Source: a virus. Taken from it: a stretch of DNA of 52,217 bases. Positions within the stretch are counted from its first letter, which is position 1, and every line of letters begins with the position of its first letter. Below, piece by piece: positions 10,559 through 30,202 of this stretch. Under the pieces are notes generated by a model. It had not been told where the DNA came from and searched no databases. It saw only the letters and a program-made list of their open reading frames with translations. The stretch lies in IMG/VR virus record IMGVR_UViG_3300045284_000036, positions 1 through 52,217 of that record. The stretch is one strand, 5' to 3'. A program made the translations under genes and the position numbers.

Positions 10559-10768
10559 TCAGAAGAAATTCGGTGGGAAAAGTCCTTGGGCGACTGCTTC
10601 GCGCTCTCTGGCTTTGATCCAGCTTTCGACTGCGTCTTTGACGCCTTCCGCCCGGTCTTCAATCGCGTCATGGTTTCTTACCAGCCAATCAAGTCTTGCT
10701 GCCAAAGCAGCGCTTACCCTTGTTGAAATGACTACGGTTTGGTTGCCGCGTATCCTGCGTCTGGTCAT
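10559..10768 (-). CDS. Ribbon-helix-helix-like DNA-binding protein
   Basis: The 69-residue protein has a basic arm, a beta strand (TVVISTRVSAAL) and two helices, as in Arc/MetJ-type repressors. It is the first gene of a minus-strand pair with the VRR-NUC gene, and its promoter region carries an AGTGTATAC site. It may be a transcriptional repressor of the phage. The target is not known. Confidence 0.62.
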   Translation of the reverse strand: MTRRRIRGNQTVVISTRVSAALAARLDWLVRNHDAIEDRAEGVKDAVESWIKAREREAVAQGLFPPNFF

Positions 10769-10800: not shown

Positions 10801-10813
10801 AGTGTATACAATG
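10801..10813. promoter_or_regulatory. GTGTATAC site in divergent promoter region
   Basis: AGTGTATACAATG lies between the divergent ribbon-helix-helix gene (-) and the injection protein gene (+). It is identical over 13 bp to the site at 6304-6316 in the portal/capsid intergenic region. It could be an operator or part of a promoter. Confidence 0.55.
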
Positions 10814-11638: not shown

Positions 11639-11863
11639 TTATTTACGCCTCATTTTTAGTTCTCTTAAAACAGCTGAACGCATGAAGTCGCCTTGAAACT
11701 CGCCTTCTTTCAGCGCGTCATTAACACGCTTTAAAAATCCGGCAGGCATGCGGACAATCGTCTTGTCTGGAAACATCAGCGGGCGACCGTTGGGACGCTT
11801 CACTGCTTTCTTCTTTCTAATAGTGGTCTTCACTTCAGTTCCAATCCAGTTTTCCATTTTCAC
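11639..11863 (-). CDS. Small basic ribbon-helix-helix-like protein
   Basis: The 74-residue protein has a Lys-rich arm, a strand (KTIVRMPAGF) and helices (LKRVNDALKEGE and QGDFMRSAVLRELKMRR). This suggests a ribbon-helix-helix DNA binder. Its ATG overlaps the DNA polymerase stop (ATGA), so it is made together with polymerase. It is unrelated in detail to the similar-sized protein at 10559. Its role is unknown; an autoregulator or replication accessory is possible. Confidence 0.62.
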   Translation of the reverse strand: MKMENWIGTEVKTTIRKKKAVKRPNGRPLMFPDKTIVRMPAGFLKRVNDALKEGEFQGDFMRSAVLRELKMRRK

Positions 11864-20202: not shown

Positions 20203-20231
20203 CGCATACGTTATCGCGAAAGGATTGTCAA
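20203..20231 (-). promoter_or_regulatory. Promoter of the 19.5-20.2 kb operon
   Basis: On the minus strand TTGACA, 17 nt and TATGCG form the promoter. The spacer end GCGATAACG and the -10 align with those of the helicase promoter (GCGATAGCG then TATACG), suggesting a shared operator. Confidence 0.6.
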
Positions 20232-20665
20232 TGCCGATTGAGTGGACTGAAGCGATGTTTGAGATGTTGATAAATCTCGCCAACGATGAAGAGAATTTTA
20301 CTTACGATGTTATCGCAGTAAAAATGAGCGACACGTTCGGAGTGAATTTCACCAAAGGCAGCGTGATTGGTAAAGGCAGAAGATTGGGTATTCCACAGCG
20401 TCCACCGAAGTTGCGAAAGCCGAGAAAAGCAAGGACACTTGAAATGGGACCAATTCCACCACGCATTCCGCGCGCCAAGAAAGGCGAGCAAGTTACTATC
20501 TATCAATTGCGTGAGGGAATGTGTAAGTGGCCGTTTGGCTCTGATCCGCCGTACTTATACTGCGGGTGTCCCGTCAAGAATGCTGGTGGTTCTTGGTGCC
20601 CGGAACACCGCAAGATCGTTCATGGCAAAGTTATTTTCGACAGCGCCATCCCCCTTCGTGGTTGA
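20231..20665 (+). CDS. GcrA-family transcriptional regulator
   Basis: This 144-residue protein has the GcrA layout. An N-terminal helix-turn-helix (IEWTEAMFEMLINLANDE, then GSVIGKGRRLGI) is followed by a basic Pro-rich linker. The C-terminal sigma-binding zinc-like region reads MCKWPFGSDPPYLYCGC and SWCPEHRK. GcrA of alphaproteobacteria acts with sigma70 at promoters carrying methylated GANTC. The start is the ATG at 20231 with AAAGGA upstream, not the TTG at 20225. It is the only plus-strand gene within the replication block. It may redirect host polymerase or control early genes. Confidence 0.87.
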   Translation: MPIEWTEAMFEMLINLANDEENFTYDVIAVKMSDTFGVNFTKGSVIGKGRRLGIPQRPPKLRKPRKARTLEMGPIPPRIPRAKKGEQVTIYQLREGMCKWPFGSDPPYLYCGCPVKNAGGSWCPEHRKIVHGKVIFDSAIPLRG

Positions 20666-20969
20666 CCTTGCGCATGCCGTGACGCTTGCAAGTATCTTTT
20701 GCAGGCGTTACGTCAGCCAGCTTGTCTAGTTCGTTCTTTTCATTTTTCGGGATGAATGGCACCGGGGTAATTTTTTCCGTAGGTACTGTCTTGGGTACGG
20801 TCACGTCGTAGGCATTCCATCCCACCATCGACTTGCCGTTAACTTCAAAGGCATGCATCAACGCCTGAAACTTGGCATCTTCGTCAGGTACTACCGGTGC
20901 TACCATCGCCAAGTCATTAGCCATAGCGCTGGTAGTCATCAACAATAAGAACAAGCCTACTTTTTTCAC
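20631..20969 (-). CDS. Small exported protein with signal peptide
   Basis: The 112-residue protein starts at GTG 20969 within the stop region of the primase-helicase gene (GTGA), with GGGAG upstream. Residues 1-18 form a signal peptide (KKVGLFLLLMTTSAMA, then NDLA), so it probably goes to the periplasm. The mature part is Pro-rich, and its C-terminus has two Cys (TCKRHGMRKVNHEGGWRCRK). It converges with the GcrA-like gene by 35 bp. The role is unknown; envelope modification or exclusion is a guess. Confidence 0.72.
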   Translation of the reverse strand: MKKVGLFLLLMTTSAMANDLAMVAPVVPDEDAKFQALMHAFEVNGKSMVGWNAYDVTVPKTVPTEKITPVPFIPKNEKNELDKLADVTPAKDTCKRHGMRKVNHEGGWRCRK

Positions 20970-23284
20970 TGAGCCATCTCCCACGGCATTTTGAATGCAA
21001 ACGGATTTGTCTGCATTCTCGGTTGGCGCGTTTCATTCCAGTCATCACCAATCAACCAGACACTGTCAGAGTTGAACGTGGCGAGACCGCGTATCTTCAG
21101 GCTGTTCAGGCAGTCCTTGCCGTTGACAAAGCCTGCTTCGATTTCCCTGATCGCCACATCGGTCAGCATCATGTAGGTAGCTTCAGGCGGCGCGGTCTCT
21201 GGTGCATATTGCGCCTTGACTTCGGCGGTAGCTGGCGTCTTCGGGCAACCTCTTAGAACATCGATAACGCCTCTAATTCGCTCCCGATACGGAAGCCCCA
21301 CAGCCATGTACCAACCACGCGAAGGCTTGCTGACTTGGTTGTTAGCCATCAGCCGCCCAAGATAGGTTGCCACATTCTTTTCGGTGATGCTGGTACGTTT
21401 GGAAATATCGCCTGCGGTCAGGCAGCACGCAGCTGAACTCAACGCCAACAACACCGCACTAGCTTTAGTGCCTTCGTTTGGCGCGTACAGTTCCTGTACA
21501 GTTTGCGCGGGTTTCCACATTGGACTTCCACCTTCTTTAATCAGTTCGAATTCAAAATCAGCTATGTCGCGCATTCGGCTTTCGATTTTTACAATGTCGC
21601 CATCTCTGCCGATAATAATGCCGCCATCAGCTGCGCCAATGACGCCAAATGATCCGTTGATAGCGTCGATAGCGTCATCTACTTTGCCCTTTTTAACGTG
21701 ATGTACAACGATAATCAAGACGTTGTGTTCTATTGCCAGCTTCTGAATTGCGCCAACAACTTTGTAGTCAACCTGATAGGCATTATCGCTTCTGTCTTGC
21801 GTGCCACGAATACGTTGCAGCACGTCAACCACTACGAACTTGATGTATGGGAAACTGGTCAGATGCGCTTTGATATCATCCAGCAACGTGCCAGTGCCAT
21901 CAGAGTTGACATAAAAGGGACCATCCACCGAATAGCGAAGCCGCAGCCTGTCTTCAACGTTCAGACCAAACGGTCTCAAAATGCTAATGCGTTCCTTGAT
22001 GCGACGTTCGTTGTCTTCCAGCATGTACATCAGGACTTCGTTCTGTACGCATTGCTCGCCCCAGAACTTGCCGCCTTCGGCAATACACATTGCCAGTTCC
22101 AGCACAATCCAGCCTTTGCCGATTTTCGGCTTGCCTGCGAGCACGATGCAGCCGCTGTCAGTCAGGAACCGGTTGACCAGAAATTTAAGCGGCGGAAGGT
22201 TCTTCAGCATCAAGTCTTTGGAAGTCTGCGCGGGATGACCGCGACCGCTTGGCGGTGTCAGCGGGTTCCTTGCGCGCTCTACGGCGATACGCTGGCCTAA
22301 TCCCATTGAAGTACCCACGCCACGCGCGAAGTCCCTGCGGTCCCCTGCGCCAAGTGTTCCCGGTAACACCGCGAAAGCACTCTCGGCGGCTTGACCTATC
22401 TCAATCAGCAGCGGGTTAACGACAACGTCGAATTCAATCATTTCCCTTGAGACTTCACGCGCGGCATCAATCAGCATTGGTGCTTCGCCGCTTGCCTTAA
22501 TCAGTGCGCCATACTTGATGCCGAGATGATGCAGCTTGGTTCCGCGCCCTGAACCCGTTGGGCTGCGCTCCACATCAAAGAGCATGCTCTTTATGCTGTT
22601 GCGGAACTCCTGAAGATTGGCGGGGGTCAGCATGGCAATATCGGCGGCGCACAGCGGCACGGCAGAAAAAAGCATGCTTTTCTGGATTATGGGTATCCCG
22701 GCTGCGGCCAGCCCCGCTTCCATGGCGGCTTTCAACGTCATGGCTGGGACAACGGGCGGCATTTTTTCGAAAATGCTGGGGCCTTCGTGCCAGTATTCTG
22801 CCGGATCTGTCCCTAACGGAACCTTATTCTGGTATACACCGTCCCATACGATTTGCTTTCCCGCGCCAAGCAGCTGCACCGGTCCAAACTTCTCTTGCTT
22901 GATGATGCCCGGCTGCGTGAATACAAGCGTGGCGGGCCGCCTGCCCCAGCGCCATTGATCGCAAGTGAAGAAGGATTGCAGGGTACCAGCAAAAAGCATG
23001 CTTTTTGCGTGCTCGTTAATGTCGCAGTCCATGCCGCGCGCTTCGACCGGTCCCAGCGTCGGGTGGAACACCAGTCCACATTGGATGCCGACACCGGTAC
23101 AGGCGTCGGTATTGATGTGCTGCATTCTCGTTTCGAATGGCAACGTGTTCCATCCGGTGCCACCCATCGGTACCTTGCCCATAACGGGTACAGGGAGTAA
23201 CCCGTGGGTGCTTTGAAGACTGCGCGCCAGATTGAGCAATTCAATTTTTGTCACTGCAACGTTCTTCATGAGGCGGGAATTCAC
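20966..23284 (-). CDS. Bifunctional primase-helicase (prim-pol-like N-terminus, RepA/AAA25 helicase)
   Basis: The 772-residue protein has an N-terminal region with the bifunctional primase/polymerase look (GWNTLPFETRMQH; VGIQCG; GMDCDINEHA at about 80-90). A central RecA/RepA-type ATPase follows, with Walker A AGKPKIGKGW at about 379-388 and Walker B FVVVDVLQR. Near the C-terminus lies a winged helix (ISKRTSITEKNVATYLGRL). It should open and prime DNA at the fork. Three in-frame KSMLF pentapeptides come from GCATGC palindromes. The GTG start at 23284 is uncertain; an ATG five codons in lacks a ribosome site. Confidence 0.82.
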   Translation of the reverse strand: MNSRLMKNVAVTKIELLNLARSLQSTHGLLPVPVMGKVPMGGTGWNTLPFETRMQHINTDACTGVGIQCGLVFHPTLGPVEARGMDCDINEHAKSMLFAGTLQSFFTCDQWRWGRRPATLVFTQPGIIKQEKFGPVQLLGAGKQIVWDGVYQNKVPLGTDPAEYWHEGPSIFEKMPPVVPAMTLKAAMEAGLAAAGIPIIQKSMLFSAVPLCAADIAMLTPANLQEFRNSIKSMLFDVERSPTGSGRGTKLHHLGIKYGALIKASGEAPMLIDAAREVSREMIEFDVVVNPLLIEIGQAAESAFAVLPGTLGAGDRRDFARGVGTSMGLGQRIAVERARNPLTPPSGRGHPAQTSKDLMLKNLPPLKFLVNRFLTDSGCIVLAGKPKIGKGWIVLELAMCIAEGGKFWGEQCVQNEVLMYMLEDNERRIKERISILRPFGLNVEDRLRLRYSVDGPFYVNSDGTGTLLDDIKAHLTSFPYIKFVVVDVLQRIRGTQDRSDNAYQVDYKVVGAIQKLAIEHNVLIIVVHHVKKGKVDDAIDAINGSFGVIGAADGGIIIGRDGDIVKIESRMRDIADFEFELIKEGGSPMWKPAQTVQELYAPNEGTKASAVLLALSSAACCLTAGDISKRTSITEKNVATYLGRLMANNQVSKPSRGWYMAVGLPYRERIRGVIDVLRGCPKTPATAEVKAQYAPETAPPEATYMMLTDVAIREIEAGFVNGKDCLNSLKIRGLATFNSDSVWLIGDDWNETRQPRMQTNPFAFKMPWEMAQ

Positions 23285-23666
23285 TCTACTTCACTGAAAT
23301 AAAAAAGCATGCTTTTTCCTATTCGTCCGGTTCGATTTGTTCGTTGGTATCGTAGCGCTCTTTGATATCGCTGCGGTAGCGCGCCATCTTGCGCGCGTGG
23401 CATTTCGGACAAGTGTAGCAAAGGAAGATGCCGTAGCCGTCATACTGCGGCTCACCCGCACCCTTCACCATGCAATCACATTCGACCATCGTTTCTCTCC
23501 CTGAATAAAAGCATGCTTTTTTCGATAGCGCAATCATAATAAGCATGCTTTTTTCGATAACGCAATCCCTAAACAAAAAAGCATGCTTTTTCTTGTGGCG
23601 CTAGTGTCCCAAGGGGCAAAAAAGCATGCTTTTTCCTTTGTTGCAGAGCAAAAAAGCATGCTTTTT
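22577..23666. repeat. Cluster of GCATGC-centred palindromes (AAAAAGCATGCTTTTT)
   Basis: Copies centre at 22577-22592 (AAAGAGCATGCTCTTT), 22668-22681, 22989-23008 (20 bp perfect), 23302-23317, 23507-23520, 23541-23550 (degenerate), 23576-23591, 23619-23634 and 23651-23666. The first three lie in the primase-helicase gene, and the others are intergenic. They lack a loop, so they are likelier protein-binding DNA palindromes than hairpins. The flanks of two copies are also repeated (TTCGATARCGCAATC). Confidence 0.93.
23319..23489 (-). CDS. Small zinc-ribbon protein
   Basis: This 56-residue protein has CDC near its start and CYTCPKCHARKMARYRSD, enough cysteines for one zinc site. The ATG at 23489 has AGGGAG at good spacing; a longer reading up to 23576 would run through two GCATGC palindromes and is rejected. 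It ends in acidic residues. It lies just upstream of the primase-helicase gene in the same direction. The function is unknown. Confidence 0.68.
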   Translation of the reverse strand: MVECDCMVKGAGEPQYDGYGIFLCYTCPKCHARKMARYRSDIKERYDTNEQIEPDE

Positions 23667-23732: not shown

Positions 23733-23873
23733 TGGTATACAGTATACCAAGATCGGTGGTATACAGTATACCAGATACCACGGGCTGTGGTATACAGTAT
23801 ACCAGATGCCACCATTCGTGGTATACAGTATACCAGATACCATCGTTCATGGCATTTGGTATACAGTATACCA
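23733..23873. repeat. Array 1 of five TGGTATACAGTATACCA palindromes with 7-nt-phased spacers
   Basis: Perfect 17-bp copies lie at 23733-23749, 23757-23773, 23788-23804, 23819-23835 and 23857-23873. Spacers are 7, 14, 14 and 21 nt. The heptamer right after a palindrome is often GATACCA or GATGCCA, a repeat of the half-site TATACCA. The array occupies the 430-bp gap between minus-strand genes (23490-23920), which otherwise holds only the GCATGC palindromes. Confidence 0.95.
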
Positions 23874-23920
23874 GCAGCCGGTTCCAATGCCCGATAAGTG
23901 GAATTGGAACCATATGCCCG

Positions 23921-24109
23921 TTAACGTTCTTTTTCCTTTTCCCGTGCTAAGTAGTCGAGCGGGTTTGCATTAGCAAACGTGACCGTTGCTAAGTCACGTT
24001 CATTGAGCCGGAACAGCAATCCGGTTAAGTCAATCTGGTCTGGATAGAGCGGACCTTTGATTGCGCTGCGACCGTCCATGTAGTCGAGTGTAATCCATAC
24101 GGCAGGCAT
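23921..24109 (-). CDS. Hypothetical protein
   Basis: The 62-residue protein PAVWITLDYMDGRSAIKGPLY has alternating hydrophobic strands and ends in a charged helix DYLAREKEKER. Its start is the ATG two bases after the upstream stop. It is the last gene before the palindrome array. No family was recognised. Confidence 0.65.
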   Translation of the reverse strand: MPAVWITLDYMDGRSAIKGPLYPDQIDLTGLLFRLNERDLATVTFANANPLDYLAREKEKER

Positions 24110-24111
24110 CT

Positions 24112-24249
24112 TTAACCCTTTCGTTCGCGGTCTAGTTCACAGCGGTACAGATACTCGATTGCAGCCACTAGCGCGGCTTGCACTTGTGCTGGCGTCTTGG
24201 CTGCCTTGGCATCGTCTAATAGCTTGGCAAGCTGCAATAGCGGTCTCAT
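24112..24249 (-). CDS. 45-residue hypothetical protein
   Basis: A small frame from ATG 24249 reads MRPLLQLAKLLDDAKAAKTP and ends ELDRERKG, all helical. Its stop lies two bases before the next gene start, and the preceding leader contains stem-loop 1. No strong ribosome site is visible (CAGGCAGCC region). The function is unknown. Confidence 0.5.
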   Translation of the reverse strand: MRPLLQLAKLLDDAKAAKTPAQVQAALVAAIEYLYRCELDRERKG

Positions 24250-24335
24250 ATCTGGCTGCCTGTTCGTTATTCGTGGGACCGTGCTAGGTAGGTACCCTAA
24301 CCCGGAAGGCCATTGCTTGGCCTTCCTACGCCTTC

Positions 24336-24366
24336 AAGCCCGGACCTTGTTTCCAAGGCCGGGCTA
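24336..24366 (-). repeat. Intergenic GAAA-tetraloop stem-loop, copy 1
   Basis: Outer stem AGCCCGG/CCGGGCT, inner stem CCTTG/CAAGG, loop GAAA on the minus-strand RNA. The inner stem differs on both sides from copies 2-4, so pairing is kept. A second hairpin (GGAAGGCC/GGCCTTCC) follows at 24304-24326. Confidence 0.85.
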
Positions 24367-24384
24367 TCGGGCTATGTGGGACCG

Positions 24385-24747
24385 TTACCGGTCTAGCTTG
24401 TCCTCATGCTCATACTCTTCGCTGTCCTCATCAGACGGCCAATGGAATGTCTCATCCCTATCATTCCATTCCATGCCAACCGGGACTAACCACAAATCGC
24501 CGTCTTGGTGCAGGCGGTACTGAACGCCGTTTTCATCCGTCACGGTCGCATCCTCGCAAACGTTTTGCCACGCGTCCCAATAGCATTCATTATCATCAGG
24601 ACCGTTTTCAAGATGTGTCCAATCCTGAACGCGAACGCCTTTGACGTGCTTGTCCCGGTCAACAAACGAGTTTGCGAAATCGCGCGGGATGTAAACGCCG
24701 CGACTATCGGACAGCCATAACAGGGTATCGGGTTTCGTTTTAATCAT
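24385..24747 (-). CDS. Hypothetical acidic protein
   Basis: The 120-residue protein begins IKTKPDTLLWLSDSRGVYIPRD and continues with ECYWDAWQNVCEDATVTDENG and DGDLWLVPVGMEWND. It ends in a strongly acidic tail. The N-terminal segment recurs in uncharacterised plasmid and phage proteins as far as I recall. It is first-strand-coupled to the next gene by 4 bp. An acidic surface could mimic DNA, but nothing proves it. Confidence 0.72.
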   Translation of the reverse strand: MIKTKPDTLLWLSDSRGVYIPRDFANSFVDRDKHVKGVRVQDWTHLENGPDDNECYWDAWQNVCEDATVTDENGVQYRLHQDGDLWLVPVGMEWNDRDETFHWPSDEDSEEYEHEDKLDR

Positions 24748-24959
24748 TGGAAAATATCCTTCATAGCGGTTTCAATGTGCTGGTCGTTGTAGTTGCGATA
24801 GAGTTCAATCAAGTTAACGCGGCCCTTTTGCCGCGCCATGTGCAGAACGTTCCAGCGTTCGTAATTGCTGCCGATTTGGCTAGGCTGAATGTTGAATTCC
24901 GCTAGCGTATCAAGCAACCCGGTTCGCAGTGTTTCGTAGTCAGCCTTTTTCATTTTCAT
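24744..24959 (-). CDS. Hypothetical protein
   Basis: The 71-residue helical protein starts MKMKKADYETLRTGLLDTLA. The ATG at 24959 has GGAGC upstream; the longer reading to 25007 is disfavoured. It overlaps the upstream gene 3' end by 20 bp. It contains SNYERWNVLHMARQKG, a helix pair seen in small phage early proteins. The function is unknown. Confidence 0.68.
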   Translation of the reverse strand: MKMKKADYETLRTGLLDTLAEFNIQPSQIGSNYERWNVLHMARQKGRVNLIELYRNYNDQHIETAMKDIFQ

Positions 24960-25362
24960 TGGTTTGCTCCATTGTGAAAAAGGGTTTCGGGTTTCCAGCG
25001 TCAACATGCATGGTCCAATAATGACCGCGTGCCGTTACCTTGCCGTCGTCGGAATATTCGCAAGCGCCGATGCCGTTGCGCTCGTAATAGTCCGCGCGCT
25101 TGCTATGCGTCGAGTAAAACGTTCCAGCATAGAAACCACCATGAACAAGGCTATAGCGGTACAGATTATCAGTCAGGCATTTTTGATAGCCTCTGACAAA
25201 TTCACGCGTCCATCCGGGACAACGGTCTAGTGTTGTCAGGATATCGCAAAAGCGCGAGTTGATATTGGCTGATGACATGCCGAAGCTTTCCGCGCGGCTG
25301 TACAAATCGCGCAATGATGAAACCGCGCTATCCCGTTTCCTAAGTGCAAGTGATATGTCCAT
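24940..25362 (-). CDS. Hypothetical protein
   Basis: This 140-residue protein has a helical first half (LALRKRDSAVSSLRDLYSRAE, RFCDILTTLDRCPGW) and an aromatic-rich second half (YRYSLVHGGFYAGTFYSTH; GHYWTMHVDAGN). It starts after stem-loop 2 with AAAGGAAAAG before the ATG. No family was recognised. Confidence 0.7.
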   Translation of the reverse strand: MDISLALRKRDSAVSSLRDLYSRAESFGMSSANINSRFCDILTTLDRCPGWTREFVRGYQKCLTDNLYRYSLVHGGFYAGTFYSTHSKRADYYERNGIGACEYSDDGKVTARGHYWTMHVDAGNPKPFFTMEQTNENEKG

Positions 25363-25397
25363 TGCTTTTCCTTTCAGGGCTTATTCCCTACGCCTTC

Positions 25398-25428
25398 AAG
25401 CCCGGTAATGCTTTCGCATGCCGGGCTT
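25398..25428 (-). repeat. Intergenic GAAA-tetraloop stem-loop, copy 2
   Basis: AAGCCCGG/CCGGGCTT outer stem, ATGC/GCAT inner stem, GAAA loop on the minus-strand RNA. It is identical to copies 3 and 4 and lies 34 nt before the start of the gene at 25362. No T run follows. Confidence 0.88.
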
Positions 25429-25447
25429 AAACGCGATTTGAAAGAGG

Positions 25448-25720
25448 CTAGCTATAGCGGCCCTTTTGCATGTGTATCCATTCCGACAAATCATTGCGTG
25501 CGCGTTCAATATCTTTTTTGCCGGAATATTTCGCACCAGTGATGCTGCTAGCCTTGTCGAGCGCGAGTTTAAGGCTTGTCCATGTCCTATGAGGTTTGAT
25601 GCCGACAGCCATTAAGCCAAGCCCGGATCTAAGCGCGGCTGCATTGAATACTGCGACAGCATCGCCACTAAACGAGCGCGCGTTTCCGTTTTCGTCATAA
25701 GTGATTTTGTTCTCTTGCAT
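25448..25720 (-). CDS. Hypothetical protein
   Basis: The 90-residue protein starts MQENKITYDENGNARSFSGDAV and contains LRSGLGLMAVGIKPHRTW and a C-terminal helix IERARNDLSEWIHMQKG. It begins five bases after the upstream gene ends. It is of the small-early-gene type. No family was recognised. Confidence 0.7.
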   Translation of the reverse strand: MQENKITYDENGNARSFSGDAVAVFNAAALRSGLGLMAVGIKPHRTWTSLKLALDKASSITGAKYSGKKDIERARNDLSEWIHMQKGRYS

Positions 25721-25724
25721 GATG

Positions 25725-25928
25725 CTAGCCTTTCGATGGTTTGAGGATATAGGCGAACCGGTATGCTTCCGGGTTATTCTCTTTCAGATTGCGCATATAA
25801 ACGTCAGCTAGCGCTTTCGTGCTAGCGGCATAGATCCAACGCATTTGGTTTGGTGGATCTATCACAACGTTCCACGTTGTGGCGCTGTATAGCGGCGTTT
25901 TGCTTTTGGATTGATGCCACGTTGCCAT
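25725..25928 (-). CDS. Hypothetical protein
   Basis: This 67-residue protein has a beta-like N-terminal half (TPLYSATTWNVVIDPPNQMRWIYAAST) and a helix ALADVYMRNLKENNPEAYRFA. Its start is a few bases after the upstream gene stop. It is part of the 25.4-26.2 kb gene string. The function is unknown. Confidence 0.7.
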   Translation of the reverse strand: MATWHQSKSKTPLYSATTWNVVIDPPNQMRWIYAASTKALADVYMRNLKENNPEAYRFAYILKPSKG

Positions 25929-25931
25929 GGT

Positions 25932-26201
25932 CTAAGCCTCTTCCTTCAAACGACGGTAACGACGAATAGGTGATGATCCGTTGTAATGTTCGCAACGAAT
26001 AGTCGGCTCGCCATACATGGCTTGAAACGCGTTCAAAAACTTTCCAGCGTCGCAATCCTCTTCTAAATATAAATCGTCATTCTTGCGATACGAATACCGG
26101 CTGAAATCATTGATGTGGAAACGCAGCATGGTGATTTCAGCAATGGTGACGCGCAACCAACCATGACCGTTGTCAGTGTGCAGTGTGAAAACTTTTCGCA
26201 T
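25932..26201 (-). CDS. Conserved hypothetical protein (HTDxGHGWLRV type)
   Basis: The 89-residue protein carries FTLHTDNGHGWLRVTIAEI and YLEEDCDAGKFLNAF, segments I recognise from a widespread uncharacterised plasmid and phage family. The ATG at 26201 has AGGAAA upstream. A reading up to 26327 would run through stem-loop 3 and is rejected. Function unknown. Confidence 0.75.
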   Translation of the reverse strand: MRKVFTLHTDNGHGWLRVTIAEITMLRFHINDFSRYSYRKNDDLYLEEDCDAGKFLNAFQAMYGEPTIRCEHYNGSSPIRRYRRLKEEA

Positions 26202-26240
26202 TGTGTGGTTTCCTATGCCGGGACTATTCCCTACGCCTTC

Positions 26241-26271
26241 AAGCCCGGTAATGCTTTCGCATGCCGGGCTT
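26241..26271 (-). repeat. Intergenic GAAA-tetraloop stem-loop, copy 3
   Basis: It has the same sequence as copy 2. It lies between the stop of the gene at 26290 and the start at 26201. The flank GAAGGCGTAGGGAATA follows on the minus strand, as after copy 2. Confidence 0.88.
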
Positions 26272-26289
26272 GGGATTGTTTGGCTAGGC

Positions 26290-27171
26290 TTAGGCCCATC
26301 CAAACTTTTCAGCGCATATCGGACCAATGCCGCGAAGCTTCCATGCTGACTTTAGAGTGGCGTTGCAAATGCAGCATGTGCCGGTGGTTTGGCCGTACAC
26401 TTTCGCGGCTTGTTCTGGATCTGCAACGAAGGCTTGAACCTTGGCAGTATCAGCGGGCGTACAAGCCGCAACGGCATGAAAGCGACCGTTTGCAATCTTG
26501 CCTAGATACTCGGTCCCGGCTTTCACATAGAGCGCACCGGGATTTGCGCTATGCGCTTTGGCCGGGCTGATTGTCATGCCGTCAATTGTGATACGCGGCG
26601 AAAGCTTCAAGCCCTTTGCAGCGCTATACGCTACCGCCTGATCGAACGAAGCTTTCAGCCGGTCAATCCCTGCCTGATCCACAGCGGGCTTATCAGCGGG
26701 CTTGGCAACCCTTGCAGCGTCCCGTTCAATGCCGCGCTGAACAAGCAGCATTTGCTTTTCGGTCAGCGAACCATATTGCTGCAAGCCCGCCAGCAATGAC
26801 GCGGCCACATCCCAACGTGCAGCGGTCTTTTCCAGCCAAGCATATTCAGCCGGGTTGGCATCTTTCCAGATTTGAACGAAACCGGCTTTCATATCAGCCC
26901 GCCTTTCTGTTGCTTTTTCTCTGTTCTGTTCACGGGTTGCGGCTGACGTTTTGAACGTCTTGGAACCTTTACCCTTGCAAGCAAAGCATTCACCCAAGAC
27001 GCGGCCAGACCACGAGGTAAAACGTCCCGTTCCGTTGCACTTGCTGCAACCTTCTTCAAAGCGCTGAACGGCTGATTTGTAGACCGGGATTGCGCGAACC
27101 GGAACGAAAGGTTCAGCGGGACCGGTATCACCGGCGAATAATGCGTCTAGGCTATCATTTAGATCAGACAT
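26290..27171 (-). CDS. DUF6011-like protein with DnaJ-type zinc finger
   Basis: The 293-residue protein has a zinc finger CSKCNGTGRF...CFACKGKGSKTF at about residues 42-68 and a helical middle. The C-terminal CCICNATLKSAWKLRGIGPICAEKFGW is the pattern of DUF6011. It is the first gene behind the strong promoter at 27209-27236 and has an AGGGG ribosome site. A nucleic-acid-binding role is likely from the zinc sites, but the function is unproven. Confidence 0.78.
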   Translation of the reverse strand: MSDLNDSLDALFAGDTGPAEPFVPVRAIPVYKSAVQRFEEGCSKCNGTGRFTSWSGRVLGECFACKGKGSKTFKTSAATREQNREKATERRADMKAGFVQIWKDANPAEYAWLEKTAARWDVAASLLAGLQQYGSLTEKQMLLVQRGIERDAARVAKPADKPAVDQAGIDRLKASFDQAVAYSAAKGLKLSPRITIDGMTISPAKAHSANPGALYVKAGTEYLGKIANGRFHAVAACTPADTAKVQAFVADPEQAAKVYGQTTGTCCICNATLKSAWKLRGIGPICAEKFGWA

Positions 27172-27200
27172 TGGTTTCCCCTAAAGGTTATGGCCCTAAC

Positions 27201-27236
27201 CCGATAACGTTATCGGATTAGAGCCAAAACTGTCAA
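27201..27236 (-). promoter_or_regulatory. Early promoter with perfect palindrome over the -10
   Basis: On the minus strand TTGACA (27231-27236), a 16-nt spacer and GATAAC (27209-27214). The -10 lies in the perfect 16-bp palindrome CCGATAACGTTATCGG (27201-27216), a good operator candidate. It drives the DUF6011-like gene. Confidence 0.75.
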
Positions 27237-27328
27237 CCGATAATTGCGGCTATCCCGAACGCCATGGTCGAAATGAACAGGATTAAGACGGCAGCCGATA
27301 GCCAGTCTGCAACGGTATCATCGGTCAT
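27233..27328 (-). CDS. Small single-TM protein
   Basis: This 31-residue protein, starting MTDDTVADWLSAAVLILFIST, is almost all one membrane helix. The ATG at 27328 overlaps the end of the upstream gene by 11 bp, with GAGG at longish spacing. It ends on the -35 of the next promoter. Size suits an inhibitor of a host membrane process, but that is inference. Confidence 0.5.
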   Translation of the reverse strand: MTDDTVADWLSAAVLILFISTMAFGIAAIIG

Positions 27329-27545
27329 GGTTGCAAGCCTCAATGAACCGGTCAGCATTAAACTTGCCATTGGACCGTTTGCAGGCAGCCACAAACGAAT
27401 TAATGACCGATTGCCATTGTGCCATTTTGTTAGCATCCCAATGTGGAGCGGGCTTGCTGTCAGCCATAACCGCTGCAATGAAACAGAAATGACGATGTTG
27501 CAATTCCGGCGTTTTATTCATGGTTGATTTGTCGCGTCCGTTCAT
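27318..27545 (-). CDS. Hypothetical protein
   Basis: The 75-residue protein contains HFCFIAAVMADSKPAPHWDANKMAQ and AACKRSNGKFNADRFIEACN. The second segment is similar in style to small phage proteins of unknown role. The ATG at 27545 has CGAGGT upstream and is preferred to an ATG 12 nt earlier. Stem-loop 4 and a second hairpin lie in its leader. Confidence 0.7.
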   Translation of the reverse strand: MNGRDKSTMNKTPELQHRHFCFIAAVMADSKPAPHWDANKMAQWQSVINSFVAACKRSNGKFNADRFIEACNHDR

Positions 27546-27588
27546 GGTACCTCGCAAAGTTAAGAGGCAGGATTGCCTCTAATGCTTC

Positions 27589-27619
27589 AAGCCCGGTAAT
27601 GCTTTCGCATGCCGGGCTT
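27589..27619 (-). repeat. Intergenic GAAA-tetraloop stem-loop, copy 4
   Basis: It is identical to copies 2 and 3 over 31 nt. The downstream flank differs (GAAGCATTAG instead of GAAGGCGTAG), and an AGAGGC/GCCTCT hairpin follows at 27563-27580. Confidence 0.88.
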
Positions 27620-27637
27620 GATAGCGTGTTGACCGGT

Positions 27638-27961
27638 CTATGCGGCGGTCAACCTATCCTCAAAATTTTCCAGCATATCGCGGGCGTGTGCTAGCGCGTG
27701 GCTCAATGCATCCTCGCGCAATGTGAGAACGGCGCGGTCTTTACGACCGTTGAAAAACACGCGGTTATCCCGTCCCGATACGACGGTAGCCAAATCGACA
27801 GCGACAGCATGACAAACGTCGTTGTTGACCTTGACGGCCAGATGATATTCCGGCCAAACGAAAACATAGCCATAGGTGCGGCTATTGCGTTCAGCGGTTA
27901 GCGCGGTTTCAAGCTTGGCAACGTTAGAGCGCAACACGCGCAAAAATTGGTTCTTATCCAT
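27638..27961 (-). CDS. Hypothetical protein
   Basis: This 107-residue protein has a helix (QFLRVLRSNVAKLETALTAER), a beta middle (YVFVWPEYHLAVKVNNDVCHAVAVD) and a C-terminal helix. It starts with AGGGGAATAA upstream and is preceded by stem-loop 5. The composition is that of a small folded protein. No family was recognised. Confidence 0.7.
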   Translation of the reverse strand: MDKNQFLRVLRSNVAKLETALTAERNSRTYGYVFVWPEYHLAVKVNNDVCHAVAVDLATVVSGRDNRVFFNGRKDRAVLTLREDALSHALAHARDMLENFEDRLTAA

Positions 27962-28009
27962 TTGTTTATTCCCCTATGGGACCGGCTTGATTGCCTCTCC
28001 TACGCCTTC

Positions 28010-28040
28010 AAGCCCGGATCATGTTTCCATGACCGGGCTA
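28010..28040 (-). repeat. Intergenic GAAA-tetraloop stem-loop, copy 5
   Basis: Outer stem AGCCCGG/CCGGGCT as in copy 1, inner stem TCATG/CATGA with GAAA loop on the minus-strand RNA. Both sides of the inner stem differ from every other copy, so pairing is conserved. Confidence 0.87.
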
Positions 28041-28059
28041 TATTGGGCTGTAAATGCGT

Positions 28060-28248
28060 TTACCTATGACGCTTCCACTTGTGCGCAGTTTCGGAATAGC
28101 GCGCCACTCGCGCTAGGTTGCTTTCCAAATGAGTGGCGATTTCATCGTCAGAGAGAAACCCGCAAAATGTCATAATGTCTTGATTGCAGCATGCGGGATG
28201 ATTTTGGACTTGAGCAACGGCAGCAATCAGATCAGCGCGGCGGGACAT
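28060..28248 (-). CDS. Hypothetical protein
   Basis: The 62-residue helical protein (SRRADLIAAVAQVQNHPACC, then FLSDDEIATHLESNLARVARY) has a sequence like small regulators with a single helical hairpin. Its ribosome site is GGAGG. It is the first gene after the promoter at 28302-28329. The function is unknown. Confidence 0.7.
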   Translation of the reverse strand: MSRRADLIAAVAQVQNHPACCNQDIMTFCGFLSDDEIATHLESNLARVARYSETAHKWKRHR

Positions 28249-28293
28249 AGGGCAAAGCCTCCAAATCGGGTTAAGATGACATATCTAACCATG

Positions 28294-28329
28294 CCGATAG
28301 CGTTATCGTAAAGTAACGTATTGTTACAA
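28294..28329 (-). promoter_or_regulatory. Early promoter with CGATAGCGTTATCG element
   Basis: On the minus strand TTGTAA (28324-28329), 16 nt and GATAAC (28302-28307). The imperfect palindrome CCGATAGCGTTATCG (28294-28308) overlaps the -10, as at 27201. Confidence 0.65.
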
Positions 28330-28859
28330 TGGACCGCCTCTAGGATTGAATTAGGGGCTTGTGGGATAGCCCTACATGACCGGGCTAGTTTGGTACCCTA
28401 TTCGCGTTTTAACGCATGGGTGACGTTTTCGCGTTTTGTTCTCCGAGCAATTGCTAGCTAGTGTATACACTAGGTTGTAATTGACTGGGCAAAAGGCCAT
28501 CCCACAAGAAACCCAACAACAGCCCTACAAATGCTGATTGTGGGATTGACCGGTCTTGGAAAGATTAGCGAATTCGCGATAGTCCCACAAAATAAACCCG
28601 GCTGCTTTAGAGGTATGTGAAAATTAGTGGGCTTGTAGTAAAGCGATAACGGTAAATATCAGGATACCTATGGACCGGGTTAGGGGCTGCCACAATGCTG
28701 CCATGTTTCCCGGACGCGTCCCACGAAAAAAGGCCAAAACCACAAGCAATCCTACACTCTGTAAACAGCGCATGTTTACGAAAACACTAGCGAATTCGCT
28801 CTAATACCTACAACCCTACAAAATCCCTTTAAAACAGCCCTTTTCGTGTGGGATGTATT
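28330..28859. other. Gene-free 530-bp region, possible replication origin or control region
   Basis: No convincing gene is visible. It holds the perfect palindrome CTAGTGTATACACTAG (28458-28473), two copies of GCGAATTCGC, repeated TGTGGGAT and CCTACAA words, and TTCGCGTTTT-type direct repeats. Such density of short repeats fits an origin or a regulatory node between divergent early units. That is inference. Confidence 0.5.
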
Positions 28860-29276
28860 TTAGCGCGTTTTATGCAATCGGTCGATTATGTGCAGATCTG
28901 GCGCGGATTGCGCGAGCGCGTAAAATGCGATTGGAGCGCGGTCCATTGCGATGTGGAGCAAGTGATAGGTTGGACCGTAAAAGAGGCTTTCAACGACGCC
29001 AATGGCGCGGCCCGCCTCAATGCGCGCGGTTACTAGGTCAATAGCGCTTGTTGCGTGTTTGATCTGCCATTGCGCGCCTTCGTAGGAAAGCACGGCAGCA
29101 AATAGCAGATTAAGGGCATCTAGGACTAAGTCAGCTTGATCTGCTGGTAAGCGCAGCATTTCGCGCTTTACCGGCATCAGATCTAGTCCGGGTTGCTTGA
29201 GCGCGCGAGCACCAGCGTCAAGAATGTCTGATAGCTCGTTGCGCGCCTCTCGATACAGCGTCAAATCATTAGCCAT
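28860..29276 (-). CDS. Hypothetical helical protein
   Basis: This 138-residue protein starts MANDLTLYREARNELSDILD at ATG 29276, with AGGG upstream. It consists of amphipathic helices (MLRLPADQADLVLDALNLLF; TARIEAGRAIGVVESLF). The longer reading to 29345 runs across the divergent promoter and is rejected. It diverges from the gene at 29344. No family was recognised. Confidence 0.68.
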   Translation of the reverse strand: MANDLTLYREARNELSDILDAGARALKQPGLDLMPVKREMLRLPADQADLVLDALNLLFAAVLSYEGAQWQIKHATSAIDLVTARIEAGRAIGVVESLFYGPTYHLLHIAMDRAPIAFYALAQSAPDLHIIDRLHKTR

Positions 29277-29293
29277 TGCGTTGACCCTACGGG

Positions 29294-29307
29294 TTAGTGT
29301 ATACGAT
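29294..29307. promoter_or_regulatory. GTGTATAC site in divergent promoter region
   Basis: TTAGTGTATACGAT lies between the divergent genes at 29276 and 29344. It is close to the palindrome CTAGTGTATACACTAG at 28458 and to the sites at 6304 and 10801. Confidence 0.5.
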
Positions 29308-29343
29308 CTGATTGTGGGATAGTCCCACATTGGAGGATTGAAC

Positions 29344-29631
29344 ATGCGTTTAGAGGTTATCGACTATGCCGCTATGGTTGACGAATTAGCGGAACTAAAA
29401 GCAGCCATTGCGCCATTGCAAGCGCGCGAGGATGCAATCAAAACCGCGCTCAAGGCAACGGGACGGGACCGGATTGACGGAACCGAACATACCGCTGTCG
29501 TGACGCTGTCGGAACGGGAAACAATCGACAGCAAAGCGCTTAGGGCTGATTTGGGCGAGGCTATCATTGCGCCTTACCTCAAGCGGTCCATTGTCGAGAC
29601 CTTGAAACTAACAGCCCGCAAGACGCATTAG
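29344..29631 (+). CDS. Conserved phage hypothetical protein (Gp157-like size and layout)
   Basis: The 95-residue protein has a helical N-terminus (AAMVDELAELKAAIAPLQARE), then IDGTEHTAVVTLSERETIDSKALRADLG and IIAPYLKRSIVETLKL. Proteins of this layout are common early products in rhizobial and related phages as I recall. The ATG at 29344 has GGAGG seven nt upstream; the TTG at 29338 is not used. Function unknown. Confidence 0.75.
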   Translation: MRLEVIDYAAMVDELAELKAAIAPLQAREDAIKTALKATGRDRIDGTEHTAVVTLSERETIDSKALRADLGEAIIAPYLKRSIVETLKLTARKTH

Positions 29632-29642
29632 GACGGTCGCTG

Positions 29643-29810
29643 ATGCATCATGCAATCTGGCTGGCCGGATTGCTAGGCTTGATCGCATTCGCCTTTGGTG
29701 AGGCTTGTGCAGTCATCCTAGCCCGGTTCCTGATCTATGCAGCCTTGACAGCTGCGCTGCTATTGGCCCTTGACGTGCTAACCCATGGGCGGCTGTCGGA
29801 TCTGATCTGA
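29643..29810 (+). CDS. Small membrane protein
   Basis: This 55-residue protein (MHHAIWLAGLLGLIAFAFGE, then a second hydrophobic segment with YAALTAALLLALDVL) has two membrane helices and a short polar end. AGGACGG precedes the ATG. The gene lies directly after the previous one and is closed by a terminator. Its role is unknown. Confidence 0.65.
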   Translation: MHHAIWLAGLLGLIAFAFGEACAVILARFLIYAALTAALLLALDVLTHGRLSDLI

Positions 29811-29819
29811 CCTATTAAT

Positions 29820-29852
29820 AGGCCCGGAACGGTATAGCCCCGTTCCGGGCCT
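29820..29852 (+). terminator. Terminator hairpin after the membrane protein gene
   Basis: A 13-bp perfect stem (AGGCCCGGAACGG with CCGTTCCGGGCCT) and a 7-nt loop are followed by TTCGG. The T run is short, so it may act in either direction or need help. Confidence 0.7.
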
Positions 29853-29866
29853 TTCGGCTGCGCAGC

Positions 29867-29997
29867 TGGCATCTGGTATACTGTATACCATATGCCACAT
29901 GCCAGCGACCTTGGTATCTGGTATACAGTATACCAGAGGGGCTGGCATAATGTATACCAGATGCCAGCAATGCTGGTATACTGTATACCAGATGCCA
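29867..29997. repeat. Array 2 of TGGTATAC palindromes with 7-nt-phased spacers
   Basis: Copies lie at 29874-29890 (centre CTG), 29919-29935 (CAG), 29943-29959 (degenerate left arm, centre ATG) and 29974-29990 (CTG). Spacers are 28, 7 and 14 nt. The heptamer before the first copy is TGGCATC and those after copies 1, 3 and 4 are TATGCCA or GATGCCA, extending the palindrome. The rest of the 390-bp gap (29811-30202) has a G/C-rich hairpin and one TAAAGCATGCTA. Confidence 0.93.
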
Positions 29998-30202
29998 AAA
30001 GGTACCGCAATGCACAAAAGGGTGGTACATCGTCTTTCGGGTACCGGTAACAAGCTTCGGCTGGGGCAGGGGGTCTCTCGAAATTTACCCCACCCCCAAA
30101 ACTTTTAGTATACAAGTTTACATAAAGCATGCTACTGAAGGGGATGAAAAAACGCATAATGATGCTAGAACAACAGCTTGAATACATAAAGGAGTGTTCC
30201 CA

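Follow-up and report, generated by a model that had tools for sequence, protein, structure and literature searches.

Heptad half-site arrays flanking the early gene block of an uncultured phage as candidate operators for a small phage-encoded regulator

The IMG/VR virus record IMGVR_UViG_3300045284_000036 (52,217 bp; the whole record is the window of this analysis, and is named G000 in genome comparisons) carries two arrays of 17-bp palindromes. The underlying unit of both arrays is a 7-bp half-site, TGGYATN, into which the spacers between the palindromes decompose. We give about even odds (roughly 0.5) that a single dimeric regulator encoded by the phage, probably of the ribbon-helix-helix (RHH) type, uses the arrays as cooperative operators, and the likeliest binder is predicted to be a 69-aa protein encoded by the same phage.

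A first-pass annotation of the window had described nine palindromes with spacers of 7, 14, 14 and 21 nt in the left array and 28, 7 and 14 nt in the right array, and these positions and spacers were reproduced exactly. The palindromes start at 23733, 23757, 23788, 23819 and 23857 on the left and at 29874, 29919, 29943 and 29974 on the right. Eight of the nine are exact copies of TGGTATACNGTATACCA; a variant, TGGCATAATGTATACCA, occupies 29943-29959. With the half-sites on its outer flanks, the right array stretches over 29867-29997. The two arrays are as follows:

23733..23873, no strand assigned: left array of five TGGTATACAGTATACCA palindromes, spacers 7/14/14/21; additional abutting half-sites GATACCA, GATGCCA, GATACCA and TGGCATT
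29867..29997, no strand assigned: right array of four palindromes, one a variant, spacers 28/7/14; abutting half-sites TGGCATC, TATGCCA, CATGCCA, TGGTATC, GATGCCA and GATGCCA

When the 119 bases of spacer and outer flank were scrambled, a maximum of three half-sites was reached in 20,000 trials, compared with the ten observed. Chance origin is excluded, since scrambled spacers and flanks never reach the observed density. The slots abutting the palindromes held a half-site in 9 of 18 cases, while 20 other offsets gave a single match, at +7, which is in register. All 26 grammar-conforming adjacent half-site pairs of the 52-kb record fall inside the two arrays. The arrays are not an assembly artefact, a worry raised at the outset, because the grammar recurs in independent metagenome contigs whose spacer sequences differ.

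Spacing grammar and its distribution among relatives

An exact-pattern scan of IMG/VR together with whole-record searches returned G001 and G005 (near-identical), G002, G003 and G004, which were compared with the window as five array-bearing lineages. The helicases of G002–G004 are 66-69% identical to that of the window in full-length comparisons, and retention of the grammar in five lineages at this helicase identity would argue for an operator function. Across the nine arrays of these lineages, 66 half-sites fit TGGYAT, with the consensus TGG[T/C]AT[A/C]. At position 4, 46 have T and 20 have C, and A or C predominates at position 7; the invariance of the remaining positions is a consequence of the search pattern.

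Neighbouring half-sites in direct orientation abut (gap 0) in 23 of 25 pairs, and the two remaining pairs, with a gap of 7, each skip one degenerate heptad. Convergent pairs are separated by 3 nt in 19 of 22 cases, by 10 in two, and overlap in one, whereas divergent pairs all lie within 6-8 nt (13/13; 7 in nine, 6 in three and 8 in one). Where the grammar is broken, a single half-site has degenerated (gaps 7 and 10) or, in one case, a dyad is fused (TGGCATGCCA). The TGGTATACAGTATACCA palindrome consists of two GTATAC-like dyads 7 bp apart, and every abutting half-site adds a dyad 7 bp outward; dyads are thus spaced by 7 bp inside runs and by 16-18 bp between runs.

Each spacer equals a 7-nt divergent gap plus 7 nt per additional half-site, and therefore all spacers in the window are multiples of seven. 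The first-pass annotation had proposed this divisibility as a rule and had staked it on relatives. It stands in the window, but the relatives have palindrome spacers of 6 (G001), 20 (G004) and 29 nt (G002), which rules out strict 7-nt phasing; the rule breaks there where divergent half-sites are 6 or 8 nt apart. The invariants are 7-bp half-site steps, a 3-nt convergent gap and a 7±1 divergent gap. This layout fits a protein binding DNA on 7-bp steps with its dimers side by side, as had been suggested, without strict divisibility. Helical phasing by 10.5 was likewise rejected, as the observed spacings are 7 and 16-18. We also considered whether the arrays could be clusters of -10 or extended -10 promoter elements (TGGTATACA/T). 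This was rejected, as the TGGYATC/G half-sites on the flanks do not resemble a -10 and no -35 was seen at the right distance.

The arrays lie ~5.9 kb apart in G002, 4.5 kb in G003, 6.6 kb in G004 and 6.1 kb in the window. The earlier statement that they bracket the early block held in four of the five lineages and failed in G001, which is without a left array. Three further relatives, G006–G008, with helicase identities of 57-61%, contained zero conforming half-site pairs, and a more distant record, L246 (helicase 48%), had no array in the 20 kb fetched. Another ~1.3 Mb of viral contigs, gathered with motif-like patterns, contained no array, and pattern scans with GTATACCAGATRCCA and GATRCCANNAGGTACCG returned many chance contigs and no additional array-bearing lineage. 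A helicase-alignment scan of a bacterial genome collection gave no relative, and the collection searched held no closely related phage record.

Candidate binder and proposed mode of control

As the first-pass annotation had noted, the record encodes a GcrA-like protein and RHH-like proteins, the latter recognised by sequence pattern. The relevant features are as follows:

10559..10768, minus strand: 69-aa RHH-like protein (RHH#1), leading candidate binder, in 8/8 genomes
10803..10810, minus strand: TGTATACA, lying within the promoter-like TTGACT-N17-TAAATT of the 69-aa gene; found upstream of this gene in all 8 genomes
11639..11863, minus strand: 74-aa RHH-like protein (RHH#2), in 8/8 genomes
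20225..20665, plus strand: GcrA-like protein (PF07750), only in array-bearing genomes (5/5 vs 0/3)

The RHH#1 and RHH#2 genes flank the DNA polymerase region, and both were called RHH-like from sequence pattern and from low-confidence AlphaFold monomer models that have a pair of helices behind an extended N-terminus. The AlphaFold monomer of RHH#1 has residues 1-19 extended or disordered and helices at 20-31 and 33-60, at low confidence (pLDDT 80, pTM 0.42); the RHH#2 model was too poor for a fold search. RHH#1 is favoured as the binder because TGTATACA lies upstream of its gene in all eight genomes, ~200 nt upstream in G004. The place of TGTATACA within the -35/-10 spacer differs between array-bearing and array-less genomes, with one position for each group, and it therefore resembles an operator more than a piece of the -10 box. 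Over all eight genomes it occurs about tenfold above expectation (32 vs ~3). The array dyads (TGGTATACAG) have a TACAG arm in common with the RHH#1 promoter site of G006–G008 (CTGTATACAG). RHH#1 residues V13, S15 and R17 are almost invariant in all eight genomes; by analogy with Arc they would be expected to face the DNA, and their near-invariance would fit a conserved GTATAC specificity.

Several observations weigh against this assignment. Neither RHH#1 nor RHH#2 gave a usable match against Pfam, PHROG, NCBIfam or solved-structure sequences, and the fold search with the RHH#1 model returned no PDB match and only BFVD matches at E>3. RHH#1 is also present in the three genomes that have no arrays, and the left array is missing in one lineage, G001. 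Finally, GTATAC overlaps possible -10 boxes (TATACA) in several promoters, and the enrichment of TGTATACA may be partly promoter sequence.

The genomic setting suggests what such a regulator could control. ORFs run mainly leftward from ~29.3 to 10 kb and rightward from 29.3 kb onward, and the leftward genes include the small block genes, the helicase, a nuclease, an ssDNA-binding protein and the DNA polymerase. An 85-aa gene and the helicase are found downstream of the left array, separated from it by several AAAAGCATGCTTTT copies, and the right array is placed between a hairpin and the rightward genes:

20966..23284, minus strand: AAA/DnaB-like replicative helicase-primase, in the leftward replication unit downstream of the left array
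29820..29852, plus strand: strong terminator-like hairpin shortly before the right array, with a perfect stem of 13 bp (AGGCCCGGAACGG/CCGTTCCGGGCCT)
30001..30050, plus strand: composite module GGTACC-N14-GGTGGT-N13-GGTACCGGTAA, beginning 3 nt past the right array
30108..30121, plus strand: GTATACAAGTTTAC, an imperfect GTATAC dyad upstream of the rightward genes, with a related element in relatives

In all five array-bearing lineages the right array is followed after 3-4 nt by GGTACC-N14/15-GGTGGT-N13-GGTACCGGT, the second GGTACC being degenerate in G003, and then by a GTATAC-containing upstream region ahead of the rightward operon. At the corresponding place, the array-less G006 and G007 have a TTGACT promoter-like sequence between two GGTACC.

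We propose that each GTATAC-like dyad would serve as a single dimer site, with two to five dimers lined up next to one another per run, one every 7 bp, and 16-18 bp between runs. Because the left array precedes the leftward replication unit and the right array the rightward transcription unit, a single protein could control both units from the early block at the centre, by repression or by activation. Coordinated control is the simplest function, since two arrays lie upstream of two diverging units. The 69-aa protein would also regulate itself via TGTATACA in its own promoter. Looping between the arrays is possible. In a more elaborate and decidedly speculative version, a regulator of an undescribed family would form discrete short spirals (2-5 dimers every 7 bp, runs 16-18 bp apart) on arrays 4.5-6.6 kb apart; it might join them through a loop, thereby insulating the early/origin block and switching the two flanking operons together, and a lone ancestral TGTATACA operator would have given rise to the arrays inside one phage group.

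The closest known parallel is omega/ParB of plasmid pSM19035, in which one RHH dimer binds each contiguous 7-bp repeat, direct or inverted; binding is weak to single repeats and strong to pairs, and the complex has been modelled as a left-handed spiral on straight DNA (PMC9499535). The phage DNA may be wrapped in much the same way. Both systems have abutting 7-bp repeats in direct and inverted orientation at promoters. The omega consensus is WATCACW, however, whereas that of the phage arrays is TGGYATN, and the phage sites form short runs (2-5 dyads) 16-18 bp apart, with no ParA recognised and a candidate binder without sequence match to omega. For these reasons the arrays, though they would work in a similar way, cannot be classed with the omega heptad operators. 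The CcdA antitoxin of the F plasmid, another RHH protein, reportedly recognises GTATAC, although that sequence did not turn up in the literature library searched; the phage differs in that no toxin partner was seen, and we know of no 7-bp tiled arrays for CcdA. Cluster A mycobacteriophages offer a further comparison in their operators and stoperators, which are repeated phage-repressor sites in one genome (PMC6550527). Stoperators, however, are 13-bp sites spread genome-wide, mostly in one orientation relative to transcription (PMC6550527), whereas the phage arrays are symmetric sites in two dense clusters.

The spacing grammar amounts to a clean, testable code by which a small regulator could tile DNA, and it comes from a phage clade for which the collection searched contained no close cultured relative. 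Should the 69-aa protein be the binder, the relatives with one, two or no arrays would make up a natural series from a single operator to a cooperative array. The 7-bp tiling known from a plasmid system would then extend to phage gene control.

Alternative explanations and neighbouring elements

The arrays might instead be replication-origin iterons that flank an origin-holding block and are bound by an initiator or helicase loader to control replication. The left array adjoins the helicase operon, and two features lie in the inter-array block: the cumulative GC-skew minimum, at ~27-28 kb, and, at ~28.3-28.86 kb, DNA that is largely non-coding and has palindromes of its own. However, GC skew here also follows gene direction, no iteron-binding-type initiator was recognised, the helicase is retained in array-less relatives and one lineage lacks the left array. 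We regard this explanation as unlikely.

Binding by a host regulator, which would let the phage sense the state of its host, is also improbable. In its favour, the phage clade is uncultured, the scan of bacterial genomes pointed to no host and the phage-encoded binder is a candidate. The arrays, on the other hand, are limited to one phage group with variable copy number inside it, and TGTATACA lies upstream of a phage regulator-like gene in 8/8 genomes.

Doubtful as well is the idea that the arrays are activator sites recruiting the phage GcrA-like protein, a sigma-70 cofactor, to promoters with poor -35 boxes. The GcrA-like gene does track the arrays (five of five array-bearing genomes and none of three array-less ones), and two array-less relatives have a good TTGACT promoter where the array-bearing phages have the array and a module without an obvious -35. 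As evidence the co-occurrence of gene and arrays counts for little, since many block genes are distributed alike and the array-less genomes may represent a single side of the tree. GcrA is known to act at GANTC-type sites, not at TGGYAT, and we know of no link between GcrA and TGGYAT arrays. GcrA homologs are likewise encoded by phiCbK-like phages (PMC3556154). The presence of a phage-encoded GcrA-family protein suggests an alphaproteobacterial host.

A partition or centromere site serving a plasmid-like stage, as the first-pass annotation had suggested, is very unlikely, for although contiguous direct and inverted 7-bp repeats resemble parS of pSM19035 (PMC9499535), the scanned proteins, a set without some of the small ORFs, include none recognised as a ParA-type ATPase, an integrase or a lysogeny protein.

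Other repeated elements were observed around the arrays. Eight AAGCATGCTT-centred palindromes (AAAAGCATGCTTTT type) occur at 22670-23663; they lie in the 85-aa gene's leader and within the helicase ORF, in which some are translated as KSMLF. They form a second operator-like family, present in all eight genomes with or without arrays (5-9 copies vs ~0.1 expected). A third such family is GGTACC, often GGTACCGyGAA, which flanks the TTGACT promoter in two array-less relatives and recurs at promoter-like sequences in array-less relatives (L170:300-400, L172:14800-14910, L246). Repeated terminator-like CTTCAAGCCCGG hairpins lie between the small leftward genes of the early block, at 24332, 25394, 26237, 27585 and 28006. 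The ~560 bp of mostly non-coding DNA at 28300-28860, just right of the cumulative GC-skew minimum, contain two GCGAATTCGC, one GTGTATACAC and several GTGGGA/TCCCAC, and are a possible origin. Lastly, the contig ends (1-117 and 52108-52217) enter the same CCTACG hexamer repeat within a Pro/Thr-rich coding stretch; the break in the contig therefore probably falls within a repeat of a genome that is circular or circularly permuted, and the record may be near complete.

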